A DNA stretch of 47,743 bases from an uncultured Kiloniellales bacterium. GTDB lineage: Bacteria > Pseudomonadota > Alphaproteobacteria > Kiloniellales > JAKSDN01. The stretch spans positions 2,845-50,587 of the forward strand of contig CAMYKD010000009.1 in the NCBI GenBank assembly GCA_947258885.1, given 5' to 3'. The notes under the pieces are model-generated. The model was given only the letters and a program-made list of their open reading frames with translations, made no database searches and was not told where the DNA came from. A program made the position numbers and the translations under genes. Positions 6,120-36,942 of the stretch are shown here, piece after piece. The stretch's first letter is position 1, and the number at the start of each line of letters is the position of its first letter.

Positions 6120-8063
6120 ATGGGTGTTCTCGCGACGCAGACGGATTTTGAGGGCGGTCTCGATGACTTGGTCCGGGACAGCCGCGAGGCCCTCAAGGAC
6201 CGGCAGCGCGACGACGGCCACTGGATCTTCGAGTTCGAGGCCGACGCGACGATCCCCGCCGAATACATCATGCTGCAGCACTTCCTCGGCACCGTGGACG
6301 GTGCCTTCGCCGCCGACATCCAGCCGAGGATCGCGAACTACCTGCGCGACCGCCAAGCCGAGCACGGCGGCTGGCCGCTGTTCCACGCCGGCGACTTCGA
6401 CCTGAGCGCCACGGTCAAGGCCTACTATGCGCTCAAGCTGGCGGGCGACGACGCAGAGTCCCCGCATATGCGGCGTGCCCGCGAGGCGGTCCTGGCGCGC
6501 GGCGGCGCGGCGCGGTGCAACGTGTTCACGCGCATCGCGCTCGCCCTGTTCGGACAGGTGCCGTGGCGCGCCGTCCCGGTCATGCCGATCGAGATCACGT
6601 TGCTGCCGCGCTGGTTCCCGTTCCATTTGGAGAAGGTGTCCTACTGGTCACGTACCGTGATCGTCCCGCTGCTGATCCTCATGGCCCTCAAGCCCCGGGC
6701 CAAGAACCCGCGGGGTGTCGACGTCCGCGAGCTGTTCGCCGAGGACCCCGAGCACTGCGCCTATCCCATGAACGCGACGGGCACCGCGCTAGGCGCCGCG
6801 TTCTCCGCGCTCGACAAGGTGCTGCGCTCGGTCGAGCCGGCCTTTCCCAAGCGCGGCCGCAAGCTGGCGATACAAAAGGCGCTCGACTTCATCGTACCGC
6901 GCTTGAACGGCGAGGACGGCTTGGGCGGTATTTTTCCCGCCATGGCCAACGCGGTCATGGCCTACGAGGCGCTCGGCACGCCGCGCGACGACCCGGACTT
7001 CGCAACCGCCCGGGCCGCGATCGACAAGCTGCTGATGTTCCACGGCGACCGGGCCTACTGCCAGCCCTGCCTGTCGCCGATCTGGGATACCTGCCTGGCG
7101 CTGCACGCCCTGCTCGAGAGCCGCGAGGACCCGCAGGGGCCGGCCGTGCAGAACGCCATCGACTGGCTGCTCGAGCGCGAGATCACCGGCACCTACGGCG
7201 ACTGGGTCTGGCGCCGCCCGGGCCTGAAGCCGAGCGGCTGGGCCTTCCAGTACTGGAACGACTACTATCCGGACGTCGACGACACAGCCGTCGTGGTCAT
7301 GGCGCTCGACCGGACCAACGACCCGCGCTGTCGGCCGGTGATCGAGCGCGCGGCCGAATGGATCATCGGCATGCAGAGCAAGAGCGGAGGCTGGGGCTCG
7401 TTCGATCCCGAGAACGAGTACACCTATTTGAACTACATCCCCTTCGCCGACCACGGCGCGCTCTTGGATCCGCCGACCGTCGATGTGACGGCGCGCTGCT
7501 TGTCGATGCTGGCGCAGCTCGGTTATCCACGAGATCATCCGGCGGTGCGCAAGGCCGTCGAGTTCCTGAAGCGCGAGCAGGAGACGGACGGCTCCTGGTT
7601 CGGTCGCTGGGGCACCAACTACGTCTATGGCACCTGGTCGGCGCTCTCGGCCCTCAACGCCGTCGGCGAGGATCTACAGGAGCCTCACGTGCGCAAGGCA
7701 GTCCGGTGGCTCGAGGGCTTCCAGCGCGAGGACGGCGGTTGGGGCGAGGACTGCGCGACCTACTGGCAGGAACGCCGCGGCGAGTCCAAGGCCAGCACGC
7801 CCTCGCAGACCGCCTGGGCGCTACTCGGACTGATGGCCGCCGGCGAGGTCGACAGCGAGTCGGTCGAGCGCGGCATCGCGCATCTGCAGGCGGCGCCGCG
7901 CAACGGCGCCAAATGGGACGAGGCGCTTTATACCGGCATCGGTTTCCCGCGCGTCTTCTATCTGCGCTACGACGGCTACAGCGCGTATTTTCCGCTCTGG
8001 GCGCTGGCGCGCTACCGCAACCTGATCTCCGGCAACGCGCGGCGCGTCGCCCTGGGCATGTGA
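6120..8063 (+). CDS. shc: Squalene-hopene cyclase
   Basis: 647 residues, normal for bacterial Shc (HpnF). The catalytic acid motif DVDDTA is at residues 385-390, where Asp protonates squalene to start cyclisation. Repeated QW-type motifs (for example GGWGSF near 422 and GSWFGRWG near 490) support the double alpha-barrel. The enzyme is a monotopic membrane protein that converts squalene to hopene and hopanol. A clear ribosome binding site (AGGAG) precedes the ATG. The gene is downstream of hpnE and upstream of a methyltransferase and hpnG on the same strand. Identification is very secure. Confidence 0.97.
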   Translation: MGVLATQTDFEGGLDDLVRDSREALKDRQRDDGHWIFEFEADATIPAEYIMLQHFLGTVDGAFAADIQPRIANYLRDRQAEHGGWPLFHAGDFDLSATVKAYYALKLAGDDAESPHMRRAREAVLARGGAARCNVFTRIALALFGQVPWRAVPVMPIEITLLPRWFPFHLEKVSYWSRTVIVPLLILMALKPRAKNPRGVDVRELFAEDPEHCAYPMNATGTALGAAFSALDKVLRSVEPAFPKRGRKLAIQKALDFIVPRLNGEDGLGGIFPAMANAVMAYEALGTPRDDPDFATARAAIDKLLMFHGDRAYCQPCLSPIWDTCLALHALLESREDPQGPAVQNAIDWLLEREITGTYGDWVWRRPGLKPSGWAFQYWNDYYPDVDDTAVVVMALDRTNDPRCRPVIERAAEWIIGMQSKSGGWGSFDPENEYTYLNYIPFADHGALLDPPTVDVTARCLSMLAQLGYPRDHPAVRKAVEFLKREQETDGSWFGRWGTNYVYGTWSALSALNAVGEDLQEPHVRKAVRWLEGFQREDGGWGEDCATYWQERRGESKASTPSQTAWALLGLMAAGEVDSESVERGIAHLQAAPRNGAKWDEALYTGIGFPRVFYLRYDGYSAYFPLWALARYRNLISGNARRVALGM

Positions 8064-8418
8064 GCGGTCTGCGGCTTCCGGGTCCGACACGGCCCAGCGC
8101 GCAACGTGCCCGCGAGCGCGGAAAGATCGCGAATTTGGGATTGCCCGGGCGGCTCATGCGCCCTGCCGGCGCACCCGGCATCGCCGCCGACTTCATCGAC
8201 AACGGATTTCCGCAACACCATGCCGGCGGGCATCCATTTACAATACCATGTTGCGCCAACGCGACGCGCGAGAATATGATTTGGATCAATGCCGCGTGGT
8301 GCCGGTCATTGATAGAAGTCCCCTCCGAAACGCGATGCCTCGGGGGGTCCGGTCCAAACGGCAAGTCGCCGGTTCGCTGAGGGAATGGATTTTCTGCAAG
8401 CTGGAGGGGGCGGATTAC
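8064..8418 (+). other. 355-bp gap between shc and the methyltransferase gene
   Basis: No convincing gene is seen. The second half (about 8200-8330) is more A/T-rich than the surroundings and could carry a promoter for the methyltransferase gene, but no clear -35/-10 pair stands out. A short inverted repeat, TCAATG with CATTGA, lies around 8286-8313. One frame is open from 8248 into the methyltransferase gene, but the strong ribosome binding site at the ATG at 8419 and the non-family-like upstream residues argue that this stretch is untranslated. Confidence 0.5.
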
Positions 8419-9192
8419 ATGGAGAACACCAATACAGGAAGCCTTGCGCTGGATCCTTTGAGTCGGGAGTGGGCGCGTAAGTACGAATTCGCGGGGATAT
8501 GGGAAAGCAACCTCGACGACGCCTTTTCCGATCTGGCGCCGTATTATGATTTCGCGAGCAATCTGGCCAGCCTGGGCCTCTGCGGCAGATGGCGCGAGCA
8601 GTTCATTTCCAGCATCGCCCTCAGGCCCGGCGACAAGGTCCTGGACGTCTGCGCGGGCACCAACGCGGTCGGCATGGGGCTCCTGCGCCGGCAGCCGGAC
8701 CTACATGTCTGCGCGATAGACCGAAGCAAGGCGATGCAGGGTGTCGGCCAGGGCCGTGCGCGAGCCCGCGGTCTGAAGATAAAGTCCGTCATAGGTGATG
8801 CGAACCACCTGCCTTTTCCGGACGGCCACTTCGACGTCGTTACCCTGCAATGGGCGACCAGGCATTTGCGGGTCGTCGATGCGTTCTCCGAAATCCGACG
8901 GGTTCTGAAGCCGGGGGGATGTTTCTACCACTGCGACATGCTGCGACCGGAAAGCCGCGTGGTGCAGACGCTCTATAGCGCCTATCTGAAGGCCTGCCTG
9001 CCGGTGACCGGACTGGCGTTCGGCAGCGGTCCGGACACCTGGAGCCTGCGCGACTATTTCGTGCGCTGTGTCGAGATGTTCTATTCCGCGCGGGAAATCA
9101 CGCAGCTGCTCCGGCATATCGGGTTCTCGGGCGTCTCCAGCAGAGCCGAGGTGGGCGGGATCGTGGCACGCCACAAGGCGGTCAAGGCCTGA
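8419..9192 (+). CDS. Class I SAM methyltransferase, UbiE-like, in the hopanoid locus
   Basis: 257 residues starting at ATG 8419, which is preceded by a GGAGGGGG ribosome binding site; a longer upstream frame exists but lacks family features. SAM-binding motif I is VLDVCAGTNAVGMG near residue 75, motif II is CAIDRS, then GDANHLPFPDGHFDVV and LKPGG, the order found in UbiE/COQ5-type C-methyltransferases. The region after LKPGG (CDMLRPESRVVQTLYSAYLK, then LPVTG) resembles the quinone-methyltransferase cap, which suggests a hydrophobic substrate. It lies between shc and hpnG on the same strand. It is not the radical-SAM 2-methylase HpnP or 3-methylase HpnR. The substrate is unknown; a hopanoid or a quinone are the obvious options. 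Confidence 0.85.
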   Translation: MENTNTGSLALDPLSREWARKYEFAGIWESNLDDAFSDLAPYYDFASNLASLGLCGRWREQFISSIALRPGDKVLDVCAGTNAVGMGLLRRQPDLHVCAIDRSKAMQGVGQGRARARGLKIKSVIGDANHLPFPDGHFDVVTLQWATRHLRVVDAFSEIRRVLKPGGCFYHCDMLRPESRVVQTLYSAYLKACLPVTGLAFGSGPDTWSLRDYFVRCVEMFYSAREITQLLRHIGFSGVSSRAEVGGIVARHKAVKA

Positions 9193-9400
9193 CGGTCTGG
9201 CGCTACGGCCGGACTGCCGGCAAGGACTGCCGTGTCGGCTTCGGCCTGTGGTATCCTGTCGGCGTGATCAACCTGCGGTCCAGCTTCGCGTCAAACGCAG
9301 ACCTTGGGATCGGGGGCGGCGCCCGCTTTCTCCCGAGGGTCTTGCAGATCACGGGTCCGTCTTTCTGTTTCGGTGTGCGGCGCAGGGTGAGCGCGGGCTG

Positions 9401-10114
9401 ATGGTCCGGGCCGGCTTCGTCACCGGGCTGGCCGTCGAGGCGGGCGTGCTGCGCCGGCATGCGGCGTCGCACGATCCAGCCATCGCGCTCATGATCGCCT
9501 GCGCCGGGGCCGACGCCCTGCGGGCCCGGCAGCTGGCCGAGGACCTGCTCGAAGCCGGTGCGGGCGCCCTGGTCAGCTTCGGCATCGCCGGCGGACTCGA
9601 CCCGGCGCTAGCGCCCGGCGACACCGTGCTGCCCGAAGCGGTCGTCGTGCCCGGCGGTAGGGCCGTCGCGACCGACACGGCCTGGCGCCGGTGCCTGCTG
9701 GACCTGGCCGCGGCAGAGGGCCTCCGGCCGACGGGCGGCAGGCTGGCCGGCAGCGACCAAGTGGTCGCGACGGCGGCCGGCAAGCGGGCCCTGTTCGAGA
9801 CGAGCCGGGCGGTCGCGGTCGACATGGAAAGCCACGCGGTGGCCCTGGCGGCCCAAGCGGCCGGCGTGCCCTTCCTGGTGGTCCGCGCGGTGATCGACCC
9901 GGCGGACCGGGCGCTGCCGAAGGCGGTGCATGGCAGCATCGCCCCGGACGGCCGCGCCCGCAAAGGGCTGGTGACCGCGCGCCTCGTCCTGCGCCCCTGG
10001 GAGGCGCCGCAGGTGAACCGGCTGCGCCAGGATACGGATGCTGCGCTCCGCGCGCTCGGCAGGCTGACCCGGGCGATTGGCCCGGTGCTCACTACCTGTC
10101 CGAGGGGTCCTTGA
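9401..10114 (+). CDS. hpnG: Hopanoid-associated phosphorylase HpnG
   Basis: 237 residues from ATG 9401. It is a nucleoside-phosphorylase-family protein: SFGIAGGLDPALAPGD is the phosphate/ribose-binding region and VDMESHAVALAA, near residue 145, carries the base/ribose-binding glutamate. HpnG removes adenine from adenosylhopane to give ribosylhopane. It faces hpnH, the enzyme for the preceding step, convergently, with only 8 bp between the stop codons. The in-frame stretch upstream of 9401 is the shadow of the preceding gene and of a 208-bp gap, and was left out. Confidence 0.9.
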   Translation: MVRAGFVTGLAVEAGVLRRHAASHDPAIALMIACAGADALRARQLAEDLLEAGAGALVSFGIAGGLDPALAPGDTVLPEAVVVPGGRAVATDTAWRRCLLDLAAAEGLRPTGGRLAGSDQVVATAAGKRALFETSRAVAVDMESHAVALAAQAAGVPFLVVRAVIDPADRALPKAVHGSIAPDGRARKGLVTARLVLRPWEAPQVNRLRQDTDAALRALGRLTRAIGPVLTTCPRGP

Positions 10115-10122
10115 GGGGGCGG

Positions 10123-11250
10123 CTACTCCGCGGCCTCCGAGGTGGTCTCCTCGACCGCCTTTGCGACCACGCTGTCGAACACGAAGTCGGCCGGACGCTG
10201 CCCGTCGAGCGGGATCTCCGGGGCCAGGGGGCCTTCGGTCCCGATGCCCTTGAGCGCGACCTTGAGGGCTTTCAGGGGGTGCTTCACCGTATCCTCTACC
10301 GCCGTGCCCTCGTAGCCGCAATGCACCATGCAGTTCGCGCATTTCTCGTAGTTGCCGGTGCCATAGGCGTCCCAGGCGGTCTCCTCCATCAACCGCGCGA
10401 AGGAGGCGGCATAGCCTTCGTTCAGGAGGTAACAGGGCCGCTGCCAGCCGAAGATGTTGCGCGTCGGGTTGCTCCAGGGCGTGCAGCGGTAGCTCTGGTT
10501 GCCGGCCAGGAAGTCGAGAAACAGGCTCGACTGGCTGAACTGCCATTTCTTGCCCTTGCCGCGCCGGAACACCTCGCGGAACAGGTTCTTGGTGTTCTGC
10601 CGGCTCAGGAAGTGCGCCTGGTCGGGCGCCCGCTCGTAGGCGTAGCCGGGCGAGACCGTGATGCCCTCGATGCCCAGCTCGGTCGCGTAGTCGAAGAATT
10701 CGGCGACGCGCGCGGGCTCGGCGTTGTTGAACAGGGTGCAGTTGATGTTCACCCGGAAGCCCTCGGCCTGCACCCGCTTGATCGCTTTGACGGCGCGCTG
10801 GAAGACGCCCTTCTGGTCGACCGCCCGGTCGTGCTCCCCCTCCAGCCCGTCCAGATGCACCGAGAAGGTCAGATAGGGGCTCGGTTTGAACAGCTCCAGC
10901 TTCTTCTCGAGCAGCAGCGCGTTGGTGCAGAGGTAGACGAAGCGCTTGCGTTCGACGATCCCGGCGACGATCTCGCCGATCTCCTTGTGCAGCAGCGGCT
11001 CCCCGCCCGGGATCGAGACGACCGGCGCGCCGCACTCCTCGACCGCCTCCAGGCACTCGCCCACCGAGAGTCGCCGGTTCAGGATCTCGTCCGGATAGTC
11101 GATCTTGCCGCAGCCGGGGCAGGCCAGGTTACAGCGGAACAGAGGCTCGAGCATGAGCACCAGAGGGTAGCGCGCCCGTCCCGTCAGGCGCTGCTTCAAA
11201 ATGTATGCGCCAACCTTGATCTGTTGCTGTATCGGAACCGCCACGGCCAC
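10123..11250 (-). CDS. hpnH: Adenosyl-hopene transferase HpnH (radical SAM)
   Basis: 375 residues. The radical-SAM cluster motif Cx3Cx2C is at C40, C44 and C47 (RCNLACPGC), followed by the GGEPLLH glycine-rich SAM motif near 80-86. Further cysteines near residues 295-305 (EKCANCMVHCGYEG) match the C-terminal part of HpnH. The enzyme adds the 5'-deoxyadenosyl radical to diploptene, the first step in making extended (C35) hopanoids. It is on the minus strand, convergent with hpnG and downstream of the metal cassette, from which it is separated by 118 bp. Identification is secure. Confidence 0.96.
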   Translation of the reverse strand: MAVAVPIQQQIKVGAYILKQRLTGRARYPLVLMLEPLFRCNLACPGCGKIDYPDEILNRRLSVGECLEAVEECGAPVVSIPGGEPLLHKEIGEIVAGIVERKRFVYLCTNALLLEKKLELFKPSPYLTFSVHLDGLEGEHDRAVDQKGVFQRAVKAIKRVQAEGFRVNINCTLFNNAEPARVAEFFDYATELGIEGITVSPGYAYERAPDQAHFLSRQNTKNLFREVFRRGKGKKWQFSQSSLFLDFLAGNQSYRCTPWSNPTRNIFGWQRPCYLLNEGYAASFARLMEETAWDAYGTGNYEKCANCMVHCGYEGTAVEDTVKHPLKALKVALKGIGTEGPLAPEIPLDGQRPADFVFDSVVAKAVEETTSEAAE

Positions 11251-21564: not shown

Positions 21565-22419
21565 CTATTCGCCGCCGCCCAGCGCGTGGACGTAGACCGT
21601 CAACATCTTGATTGTGGTGTCGTCCAGGCGACCTGTCCAGGCTGGCATGACGCCGTGGCTCGGCCGCGTGATCTGGGCGACGATGTCGGCCTTCTCGCCG
21701 CCGTAGAGCCAGATCTGGTCGGCTAGCCTGGGTGCGCCGAACTCGCGCCCGCCCTCGCCCGCCCCGCCGTGGCAGGAGGCGCAGTGCTCGGCGTAGAGTT
21801 CCACGCCCTCCCCGGCCGCGCCGGCGGCCTGGGTCGAGAGCGACAGGACATAGGAGGCCACGACCTCGATCTGGCCTTGGTCAAGCAACTCATCCGGGCC
21901 GAAGGCCGGCATCTCGCCCACGCGAGTGTCGTCGTCGTCCGCGGTGCGGACGCCGTGGCGCAGGGTCGTTTCGATCTCGTCCAGCGTGCCGCCCCACAGC
22001 CAGGAGTCGTCGGCCAGGCTCGGGTAACCGGGGCGGCCGGCACCGCCCGCCGCATGGCAGGGCGCACAGTTGTCGGCGAAGGCCGCGCGCCCGCCGGTCA
22101 GGGCGAAGTTGAGCAGGTCCGGGTCGGCCTTTACCTCCTCCAGGGGCGCGGCGGCGATGCGGTCCAGGCTACCGGCCTGGCGCGCCCGCGCCTCGGCCAT
22201 GCGCTCGACCAGCTCCTCGCGCTGGGAGTAGCCCATAAGGCCCGCGATGCCCGGGATGGTCGGATAGAGCAGGTAGTAGACCAGCGACCAGATGATCGTG
22301 GCATAAAGCACATAGAGCCACCACCTGGGCAGCGGGGTGTTGAGCTCCTTGATACCGTCCCATTCGTGGCCGGTCGTCTCGGTCCCGGTGACGGAGTCCT
22401 TCTCGATCTTGGTCGGCAT
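21565..22419 (-). CDS. ccoP: cbb3-type cytochrome c oxidase subunit III, diheme CcoP
   Basis: 284 residues. The N-terminal membrane anchor is near 33-53 (WWLYVLYATIIWSLVYYLLYP), followed by two cytochrome c domains with heme motifs CAPCH at 118-122 and CASCH at 213-217 and the axial Met motifs after each (GEMPAFG and HGVMPAWTG). It passes electrons from soluble cytochrome c to CcoO. It follows ccoQ by 3 bp. Confidence 0.97.
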   Translation of the reverse strand: MPTKIEKDSVTGTETTGHEWDGIKELNTPLPRWWLYVLYATIIWSLVYYLLYPTIPGIAGLMGYSQREELVERMAEARARQAGSLDRIAAAPLEEVKADPDLLNFALTGGRAAFADNCAPCHAAGGAGRPGYPSLADDSWLWGGTLDEIETTLRHGVRTADDDDTRVGEMPAFGPDELLDQGQIEVVASYVLSLSTQAAGAAGEGVELYAEHCASCHGGAGEGGREFGAPRLADQIWLYGGEKADIVAQITRPSHGVMPAWTGRLDDTTIKMLTVYVHALGGGE

Positions 22420-22422
22420 GCC

Positions 22423-22587
22423 TCACATCTCCCCGTCGTCGTCCCGGAGCGGGATCCGCGCGTGCTGCTCCATCTCGGCCTTGCGCTTCGGCCACAGGGC
22501 CCAGGCGACGATCGCCAGGAACAGGCCCATCAGCCAAAGACCCCAGAAGGGACGGAGCGCCTCGGCTATCGCTTGCAGGGTTTCCAT
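22423..22587 (-). CDS. ccoQ: cbb3-type cytochrome oxidase subunit CcoQ
   Basis: 54 residues: a short N-terminus, one membrane helix near 13-31 (PFWGLWLMGLFLAIVAWALWP) and a charged tail. This is the standard FixQ/CcoQ pattern. It stabilises the interaction of CcoP with the core complex. It sits between ccoO (11 bp upstream) and ccoP (3 bp downstream). Confidence 0.92.
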   Translation of the reverse strand: METLQAIAEALRPFWGLWLMGLFLAIVAWALWPKRKAEMEQHARIPLRDDDGEM

Positions 22588-22598
22588 CGCGCCATCCC

Positions 22599-23321
22599 CT
22601 ATTGCCGCAGGTCTTCGGGCTTGACGTCGGTGAAGTCGACCATGCGGCCGAGGATCTGCATATAGGCGACCATCGCGTCCATCTCGCTGAGCAGCGCGGG
22701 ATTGCCGTCGAAGTCGCCGACCGCGGCCTTGGGATAGCGGGCCAGCAGGTCGTCCGTGTCGGCCTCCGGGTCGGCCTGGGCCTCGAGGTCGGCCGCGGCG
22801 TTTTCGATCATCTCGTCGCTGTAGGGCACGCCGACGGCGCGGTTGGTCTCGAGCCGCTCGGCGATGTCCGCGGCCTCCAGCGGCCGGTCCAGCATGAATC
22901 CGTAAGCCGGCATGATCGACTCCGGCACCACGCTGCGCGGGTCGGCCATGTGGGCGGCGTGCCATTCGTTCGAGTACTTGCCGCCGACCCGGGCCAGGTC
23001 GGGACCGGTGCGCTTGGAGCCCCACTGGAAGGGATGGTCGTACATGGATTCGGCGGCCAGGCTGTAATGGCCGTAGCGCTCGACCTCGTCCCGGAACGGC
23101 CGGACCTGCTGGGAGTGGCAGAGGTAGCAGCCCTCGCGGATGTAAATGTCGCGCCCGCGCAGCTCGAGCGGCGTATAGGGCCGCACGCCTTCGACCCGCT
23201 CGATGGTGCTCTCGACGGTGTAGAGCGGCACGATCTCGACCAGTCCGCCGATCGATACGGTGATCAGGATGAGCACCAGCATCAGGATGACGTTCTGTTC
23301 GATCTTGCTGTGGCTGAACAT
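22599..23321 (-). CDS. ccoO: cbb3-type cytochrome c oxidase subunit II, CcoO
   Basis: 240 residues from ATG 23321, which has a strong GAGGAGG ribosome binding site. One N-terminal membrane anchor precedes a monoheme cytochrome c domain with CYLCH at residues 65-69. The sequence [13 protein letters not shown] is diagnostic for CcoO. It carries electrons from CcoP to the CcoN active site. The gene follows ccoN by 11 bp. Confidence 0.97.
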
Positions 23322-23332
23322 GGTCGTCCTCC

Positions 23333-24793
23333 TCACTCGGCCGGGTTCATGCCGGGGGCCACGGCCGGCGCGCCAGCCTCCTCGCGCACGTCGCCGCGCG
23401 CGGTGCGGATCAGGTTATAGACCATGACCAGCGAACCGATCAGGAACAGCACGCCGCCCAGCGCCCGGATCACGTAGAAGGGATGCATGGCCTCGACGGT
23501 CTCGATGAAGGCGTACTGCAGGAAGCCCAGGGAGTCGTAGGCCCGCCACATCAGGCCTTGCAGGATGCCCGAGACCCACATGGCCGTGATGTAGAGCACG
23601 ATGCCGATGGTCGCGATCCAGAAATGCACGCTGACCAGACGCTCGGAATAAAGTCGCGCGCGCCGCCACAGCTTGGGTACCAGGAAATAGACCGCGCCGA
23701 AGGAGACGAAGGCGACCCAGCCGAGCGCGCCAGAATGCGAGTGGCCGACGGTCCAATCGGTCCAATGGCTGAGCGCGTTGACCGGCTTGACCGACATCAG
23801 CGGACCCTCGAAGGTGCTCATGCCGTAGAAGGCGACCGAGACCACGAGGAAGCGCAGCACGGGGTCTGTACGCAGTTTGTCCCAGGCCCCCGACAGGGTC
23901 ATTATGCCGTTGATCATGCCGCCCCAGGACGGCATCCAGAGCATCACCGAGAAGGTCATGCCCAGGGTCTGCGCCCAATCCGGCAGGCTCGTGTAGAAAA
24001 GGTGATGGGGCCCGGCCCAGATGTAGAGGAAGATGATCGACCAGAAGTGGATGATCGACAGCCGGTAGGAGTAGACCGGCCGCTCGGCCTGCTTGGGGAT
24101 GAAGTAGTACATGATCCCCAGGAAGCCGGCGGTCAGGAAGAAGCCCACCGCGTTGTGGCCGTACCACCATTGGGTCAGGGCGTCCTGCACGCCGGAGAAC
24201 AGCGAGTAACTCTTGGTGCCTGTCCAGGACACCGGTAGCGACAGGCCGTTCACGATGTGCAGCATGGCGACGGTCACGATGAAGGACAGGAAGAACCAGT
24301 TCGCTACGTAGATGTGCGGTTCCTTGCGCTTCATGACGGTGCCCAGGAAGACCAGCAGGTAGACGACCCAGACCAGGGTCAGCCACAGGTCGACGTACCA
24401 CTCGGGCTCGGCGTACTCGCGGCCCTGGGTGATGCCCAGGAGGTAGCCGACCCCGGCCATGACCAGGAACAGCTGGTAGCCGACGAACACGAAGCCGGCC
24501 AGCGTCTCGCCGCCGAACAGCGTGGTCCGGCCGGTGCGCTGGACCACGTAGAACGAGGTGGCGATCAGCGCGTTGCCGCCGAAGCCGAAGATCGCCCCCG
24601 AGGTATGCAGCGGCCTGACCCGGCCGAAGCTGAACCACTCCAGGTCCAGGTTGAGGACCGGATAGGCGAGTTGCAGGGCGATCAGGACGCCCACCAGAAA
24701 GGCCGCCACGCCCCAGAACATCGTCGCGATGACCAGGAGCCGGATAACGCCTTCGTTGTATGCGCTGCTGCTCGCGCTCGCTTGGTCGGTCAT
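23333..24793 (-). CDS. ccoN: cbb3-type cytochrome c oxidase subunit I, CcoN
   Basis: 486 residues from ATG 24793, with about 12 membrane helices. Conserved heme and copper ligand regions are visible: [15 protein letters not shown] early (low-spin heme), [11 protein letters not shown] and GPHHLFYTS in the middle (Cu-B histidines) and [11 protein letters not shown] late (hemes b). It is the catalytic subunit of the high-affinity proton-pumping oxidase used at low oxygen. It is the first gene of the operon, and an FNR/FixK-type box is centred about 112 bp upstream of the start. Confidence 0.97.
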
Positions 24794-24898
24794 GCCCCCC
24801 CCAACGTCAATCGTTTCTCCGCCGGCCACGAAGCGGTCCCGCGAAGCGCATCCGCGCCGAGACACTAGGAAATTGCAGTAGATAAGGCGAACACCGCA

Positions 24899-24912
24899 TT
24901 GATGTAGGTCAA
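24899..24912 (-). promoter_or_regulatory. FNR/FixK-type box upstream of ccoN
   Basis: TTGATGTAGGTCAA fits the TTGA-N6-TCAA pattern of FNR, ANR and FixK sites exactly, with one mismatch to the stricter TTGAT-N4-ATCAA form. It lies between ccoN and the divergent DUF2189 gene (start 25003), so either could be controlled. Its role in cbb3 operons under low oxygen is well known; the specific regulator here is not identified. Confidence 0.8.
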
Positions 24913-25002
24913 TGCCCCTCAACCGCGTTAGACTGCGATTCTGTCGCAAGAGCCGTAACCGAGATGGCAGGCGGCGCAAACAGGTCGGTGTGGGAGGGGC
25001 AC

Positions 25003-36045: not shown

Positions 36046-36876
36046 CTATTCTACCGCACGGTGCCCTGAGAGCGTTGCGTCGCGCACCAGAGGGCTTTTC
36101 GTATTTCCGGTGTCCGGCTTTCTTAGGATCCAGATGTAGGTCGGGCACGACCAGTAGGCTACAGCGAGAATGGAGGCGCTTAGCTTCTGCTTGAGAGACC
36201 CGGGGCGGATCATGTCCGTCGCGTGATACTTGACCGGGTCGGCAATGACTTTTCGGGTGTAATCATGAACCTCGAAATTCCGGACCAGCTTCCTCAGCCC
36301 CCACAAACTCAAGTGGGTCTCATAATAACGCCCCGCTTTTCCCGCCAACCTTACATAGATATGAGCAAACCTTTTCGGGACGATGGAGAGAAGCGGTAGC
36401 CCGTAGTGGGCCTCGATGAACTTGATCCGGTTTCCGGCCGCGAAATAGCAGCATCCGCCGGGCCTCAATACGCGATGGATCTCCGCCAGCAACCGGCGTG
36501 AATCGGGGACATGCTCGTAAATGTGTGTACATGTGACGCAATCGAACGACCCTTCGTCGAATTTCAAGGCCATCGAATCCCCGCACAAGAACTCCACATC
36601 TGCCGAGCCGTGGGTCTCTGTGGCGTGGTCAACGGCATCTTTGTCGATATCGATGCCGGTTACCCTTGCGAAGGTCTCGCCGTAGGCGCGGGTCGGGAAC
36701 CCGGTCGAGCGGCCGATGTCCAACAGGGTCAGCTCAGTCGGGGTCTTTCCCGTGCCGATCAGGAAATCGGTCATGACTGCAAGGGCTTTTCTGGCCTTCC
36801 GGCCTCGCCGCTCAGCGTCGTACATCGCTTCCCGGTGGGTTTCGGAAAAGCCATGCTGATAGACGTACTCGGCCAT
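36046..36876 (-). CDS. Class I SAM-dependent methyltransferase
   Basis: 276 residues from ATG 36876 (a TTG at 36915 is possible). SAM motif I is LLDIGRSTGFPTRAYG near 51-66, which has Arg-Ser in place of the usual CysGly in the GxGxG loop; motif II is VTGIDID, and FDCVTCTHIYEHV and VLRPGG follow. The C-terminus contains two hydrophobic stretches (YGLPLLSIVPKRFAHIYVRL and ASILAVAYWSCPTYIWIL), suggesting membrane contact with a lipid-linked substrate. It is downstream of the GT4 gene on the minus strand, with a gap of about 65 bp. Confidence 0.85.
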   Translation of the reverse strand: MAEYVYQHGFSETHREAMYDAERRGRKARKALAVMTDFLIGTGKTPTELTLLDIGRSTGFPTRAYGETFARVTGIDIDKDAVDHATETHGSADVEFLCGDSMALKFDEGSFDCVTCTHIYEHVPDSRRLLAEIHRVLRPGGCCYFAAGNRIKFIEAHYGLPLLSIVPKRFAHIYVRLAGKAGRYYETHLSLWGLRKLVRNFEVHDYTRKVIADPVKYHATDMIRPGSLKQKLSASILAVAYWSCPTYIWILRKPDTGNTKSPLVRDATLSGHRAVE

Positions 36877-36942
36877 GGTTTTCTCTACGAGCGCTGGCGG
36901 CTGGAGCGGCGGCAATGCTAAAGCAACAGAGTTAACGGCGGA

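Follow-up and report, generated by a model that had tools for sequence, protein, structure and literature searches.

A UbiE paralogue lodged between hopanoid genes is a candidate low-oxygen quinone methyltransferase

The gene under study is located within a stretch of 47,743 nucleotides from an uncultured Kiloniellales bacterium (the whole stretch is here denoted the window). Upstream of the gene lies shc and, further upstream, hpnE. Downstream lies hpnG, and shc, the gene and hpnG are encoded on the same strand. The features of the window considered here are the following.

6120..8063, + strand: shc, squalene-hopene cyclase (TIGR01507, 794 bits), not judged a functional partner
8276..8289, + strand: FNR/FixK/Anr-type box ATGATTTGGATCAA, ~130 bp upstream of the methyltransferase ATG
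8403..8407, + strand: Shine-Dalgarno sequence GGAGG of the methyltransferase gene, 11 nt before the ATG
8419..9192, + strand: UbiE/COQ5-family class I SAM methyltransferase gene, 257 aa, of a clade distinct from true UbiE
9401..10114, + strand: hpnG, hopanoid-associated phosphorylase (TIGR03468, 191 bits), not judged a functional partner
10123-11250, - strand: hpnH, radical SAM adenosyl-hopene transferase, encoded opposite to hpnE, shc and hpnG
21565-24979, - strand: cbb3 oxidase genes (ccoP, FixQ-like, ccoN), with a box at 24899-24912

The original prediction of a UbiE-like class I SAM methyltransferase proved correct: the protein matches the Pfam family Ubie_methyltran with 118 bits (E 3.7e-34) over residues 29-256, almost its full length. 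The profile matches to shc and hpnG bear out the predicted same-strand position between them, and the GGAGG sequence agrees with the strong ribosome binding site claimed for the gene. Gaps of 355 bp and 208 bp separate the gene from shc and hpnG, respectively, the hpnG start codon having been placed at 9401 by our own reading of the sequence. An alternative in-frame ATG at 8248 would give a protein of 314 aa; the start at 8419 was kept because alignments with relatives begin no earlier than about residue 1-16 of the protein that it gives. Scanning window positions 8000-9500 for sigma-70 promoters and terminators found none. The window also encodes a second class I methyltransferase (36046-36915, - strand), matching Methyltransf_11 with 86 bits and UbiE more weakly.

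The protein belongs to the PF01209 superfamily, scoring 118 bits against a cut-off of 20.1 and showing a COQ5 fold. On TIGR01934, the model for UbiE/MenG, it reaches 136.5 bits and falls below the curated cut-off of 158.35; its family scores ~118-152 bits. The genome, of 4.9 Mb and 97% complete, carries a true ubiE elsewhere (G000:C4:46824-47516; 274 bits on PF01209, 254 bits on TIGR01934), and a UbiE above cut-off is also present in 32 of 34 tested genomes carrying the gene or a relative. The tree against UbiE that had been suggested with the original prediction was built from 61 proteins, and the gene's family and UbiE each formed one group, split at 100/100. The second ubiE and the separate clade rule out that the gene is the genome's UbiE, and the prediction is spared the outcome named as fatal to it, a sole ubiE placed inside the true UbiE group. 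The family is recognised by the signatures DVCAGTN, TLQxASRHL, FYHCDMLRP and YFxxALxMFYS. Another UbiE relative, the methyl-plastoquinone methyltransferase MpqE of Nitrospirota (NF052510), matches the protein over its full length, but with 132 bits, far below the curated cut-off of 335, and comes from another phylum; MpqE was therefore ruled out.

The AlphaFold model (pLDDT 89) found yeast Coq5 as its nearest solved structure (E 2.4e-19, TM 0.76/0.82); its Z score was 27.3, and the entry ranked second reached 22.6. The family thus shares with UbiE, COQ5 and MenG the fold, the length and the near full-length profile match, and it keeps Tyr43, Asp44, Arg148, Tyr186, Tyr213 and His252, each at least 93% conserved in both the family and UbiE. 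The acidic residues of the SAM site, Asp76 and Asp101, are kept as well. Fifteen positions differ consistently between the two groups. The Asn next to Arg148 in UbiE is His149 in all family members, most of them have Asn where motif I ends in Gly in UbiE (GTG to GTN), and CDML stands in place of LEFS; the family also has an N-terminal helix with conserved Glu, Arg, Phe and Trp. On the simplest reading, a methyl group would pass from SAM to a quinone-like ring. A rival to be weighed here is that, in cells at low oxygen, the methyl group goes to a substrate outside quinone metabolism, such as a small molecule or the amine of a phospholipid. Many such methyltransferases are found among the fold neighbours ranked below Coq5, and many loci of the family have no respiratory neighbours (see below). 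Coq5, however, stands apart as the best full-length structural match and the residues common to UbiE extend beyond the SAM site, and we consider this rival unlikely.

Searches of bacterial genomes yielded 343 candidate relatives. The best 80 come mostly from beta- and gammaproteobacteria, many of them Methylococcales, and most are 43-64% identical, except those of two near-identical alphaproteobacterial genomes. The family was detected in 11 of 274 genomes of the gammaproteobacterial class sample, several of the 11 being seeds of the query alignment. Among 289 alphaproteobacteria sampled, only the window's genome gave a family-level score; four other matches, at ~140 bits, group with UbiE. A lateral origin of the gene in this alphaproteobacterium is therefore likely, we infer. 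The bearer genomes are mostly draft metagenome genomes.

The original prediction offered two substrates, an undescribed modified hopanoid or a quinone. Among the best 80 of the 343 loci, hpn genes lie near the methyltransferase gene only in the window and in two genomes near-identical to it (L009 and L010); no hpn synteny was found with more distant relatives. The suggested check of co-occurrence with hopanoid genes turned out negative. Fourteen of 50 bearers, among them many Methylococcales, have shc, and 36 do not. For the gammaproteobacterial sample, a comparison of the list of bearers with the list of shc genomes placed shc in 1 of 11 bearers and in 39 of 263 non-bearers. Also missing shc is the genome of L011, which at 64% identity is the closest bearer that is distinct. 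A rival role, methylation of the hopane skeleton or of the polyol side chain to an undescribed hopanoid, draws on the location of the gene next to shc and hpnG, both in the window and in its two near-identical genomes. The absent synteny and co-occurrence led us to reject it as the role of the family, leaving it a very slight probability. FNR control, moreover, is not expected of a hopanoid gene. The hopanoid part of the original proposal is not upheld, and of its two substrates the quinone is favoured, on grounds given below.

Between shc and the methyltransferase gene lies a box with one mismatch to the FNR/FixK consensus TTGAT-N4-ATCAA, and boxes with at most one mismatch were counted throughout. 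The same box recurs in L009 and L010, that is, in the near-identical genomes. Only one other such box is present in the whole window, ~106 bp before the probable start of ccoN (assigned by inspection); cbb3 oxidase is a classical target of FNR/FixK-type regulators. Fifteen of 74 non-redundant upstream regions of the family carry a box; permuted palindromes averaged 0.85 such regions and never exceeded 4, and altered spacings gave 2 or fewer. Exact boxes number four in the same 74 regions and none in the controls. Of the remaining long ORFs at these loci, 22 of 506 are preceded by a box (the family is enriched, Fisher p 1e-5), as is 1 of 29 UbiE genes. Tested as a putative FNR/FixK regulon, the family therefore carries boxes more often than chance allows. 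Together these data suggest that an oxygen-responsive activator of the FNR/FixK type most likely drives transcription of the gene from a promoter of its own.

Such control would also fit a low-oxygen isoenzyme of UbiE, induced at low oxygen to carry out the same reaction. The UbiE step needs no oxygen, so an isoenzyme of this kind is not required. The boxes and the UbiE-like residues that the family keeps agree with it, and one report describes signs of FNR control for the O2-independent ubiquinone genes (PMC11707229). We regard the isoenzyme as distinctly unlikely, given the 15 consistent differences from UbiE, including His149 and the GTN of motif I, and the deep, separate clade that stays below the TIGR01934 cut-off (136 vs 158 bits).

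To characterise the neighbourhood outside the window's genome, we inspected the best 80 of the 343 loci. The frdABCD genes adjoin the methyltransferase gene in 16 of the 80, in three arrangements: the gene follows frdD in most betaproteobacteria, precedes frdA in L046 and L064, and is divergent in L015. FrdA of L046 and L064 scores above the quinol:fumarate reductase cut-offs, and a box precedes frdA in 7 of 12 frd-linked loci. The frd-linked loci are not independent, since most belong to one betaproteobacterial group. Genes for MtrB/PioB and multihaem cytochromes are close in 13 of the 80 loci, 12 of which are from Methylococcales. One gammaproteobacterial assembly holds two copies of the gene, one near mtr and the other near frd (L062 and L064). 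About 37 of the 80 loci lack all three of frd, mtr and the helical partner described next, and their neighbours look unrelated. A Polyketide_cyc gene that neighbours the methyltransferase gene in Methylococcales is presumably part of a ratA/smpB-type locus and was not used as evidence.

A protein of ~212 aa, predicted to be all-helical, adjoins the gene in 22 of the 80 loci (for example L019:8767-9405; alignment A2) and is encoded by 19 of 50 bearers; a search of the window's genome did not find it. The protein of L019 and its relatives matched no Pfam family. Its model is confident (pLDDT 91), and Foldseek against the PDB gave no reliable match; VIA-align reached Z scores of up to 6 only, a level common for helical bundles.

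The abundance of Methylococcales among the bearers is a point in favour of a further rival, methylation of the side chain on the way to methylene-ubiquinone or to another ubiquinone with a modified chain. The UbiE/COQ5 enzymes known so far, by contrast, act on the ring. Most bearers, moreover, are non-methanotrophs, and the links to frd, mtr and FNR do not suggest a constitutive change of the chain. Methylene-ubiquinone has been reported from a Methylobacter enrichment (PMC11844350), and its enzymes, like those of other rare quinones, are stated to be unknown (PMC13386864). On balance we hold side-chain methylation to be improbable, more so than a UbiE isoenzyme.

To learn which low-oxygen quinones the bearers can make by known routes, we looked for RquA, MenD and MqnC. 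RquA, the rhodoquinone synthase (NF038261, cut-off 175 bits), resembles the family in its SAM fold, its place in quinone metabolism and its link to fumarate respiration, and sets a precedent for a UbiE-like protein that yields a low-oxygen quinone (PMC9814641). Its SAM-binding motifs are disrupted (PMC9814641), whereas those of the family are largely kept; an RquA-like altered use of SAM in the family is possible but unsupported. The methyltransferase gene is not RquA by the curated model, the only matches above cut-off in its genome being two true rquA genes elsewhere, whose scores are given in the order in which they are listed for the C37 and C3 copies.

G000:C37:4607-5248: rquA copy 1 of the window's genome, 315 bits, above the curated cut-off
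G000:C3:21670-22314: rquA copy 2 of the window's genome, 303 bits, above the curated cut-off

A genome near-identical to that of the window (G283) has two rquA genes as well. A gammaproteobacterial bearer encodes an RquA-like protein at 158 bits, just below cut-off (G008:C90:40245-40919, L090).

RquA above cut-off occurs in 4 of 50 bearers, the window's genome among them. MenD was found in one of the 50, and above-cut-off MqnC likewise in one; these low counts led us to reject menaquinone methylation. Further MqnC matches fall below threshold at ~320 bits, in frames of ~780-1040 aa, and probably represent FO-synthase-type proteins. All 15 frd-linked bearer genomes checked are free of RquA, MenD and above-cut-off MqnC, which suggests that there the enzyme may supply something otherwise missing. 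Having two rquA genes, the window's organism would have no need for a new low-potential quinone. The Frd of some bearers may also run as succinate dehydrogenase with ubiquinone: in one frd-linked genome (G004), of which ~2.3 of 3.1 Mb (~75%) was read, FrdABCD is the only complex II seen and thus may work in this way; the one other flavoprotein match in that part is NadB.

Together, the results point to a low-oxygen-induced UbiE paralogue whose substrate would be either an isoprenoid quinone or an intermediate from late in the ubiquinone pathway, a role to which we give about an even chance. A quinone substrate is favoured because the fold is closest to Coq5 and Tyr43, Asp44 and Arg148 are kept, and because the neighbours and promoters of relatives indicate low-oxygen respiration; the recurrent signs of low-oxygen control and the fumarate reductase neighbours make a respiratory quinone a likelier target than a hopanoid. 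Probably the gene came into this alphaproteobacterium from outside and ended up between shc and hpnG. At low oxygen an FNR/FixK-type activator would switch on its own promoter, the enzyme would methylate the quinone head group or the late pathway intermediate, and the modified quinone would suit low-oxygen respiratory enzymes, namely fumarate reductase and MtrAB-type electron export. The window copy may have retained the role of its beta- and gammaproteobacterial relatives. Several observations count against this role: the hopanoid neighbours, the missing helical partner and the two rquA genes of the window's genome, the mismatch in its box and the near identity of the two genomes that repeat it, the ~37 of 80 loci with none of the associated genes, the possible use of Frd as succinate dehydrogenase, and the non-independence of the frd-linked loci.

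A bolder reading is that, in ubiquinone-only Pseudomonadota with no rhodoquinone or menaquinone genes, the family makes an isoprenoid quinone not yet described, which would supply fumarate reductase and MtrAB-type export during respiration at low oxygen; in many of these bacteria the 212-aa helical protein would be the partner of the methyltransferase. We advance it tentatively, as rather unlikely though slightly ahead of a role outside quinone metabolism.

A search of open-licence papers found no description of this methyltransferase family. Enzymes of this kind are known; neither the branch nor its likely control or neighbourhood seems to have been described before. Genomes have lately been used in surveys to predict respiratory quinones (PMC13386864). 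As this locus illustrates, lying within a hopanoid cluster can be misleading. Conserved, preceded by low-oxygen promoter boxes and placed beside fumarate reductase in bacteria without known low-potential quinone genes, the UbiE paralogue is a concrete candidate for a quinone step that is still missing.
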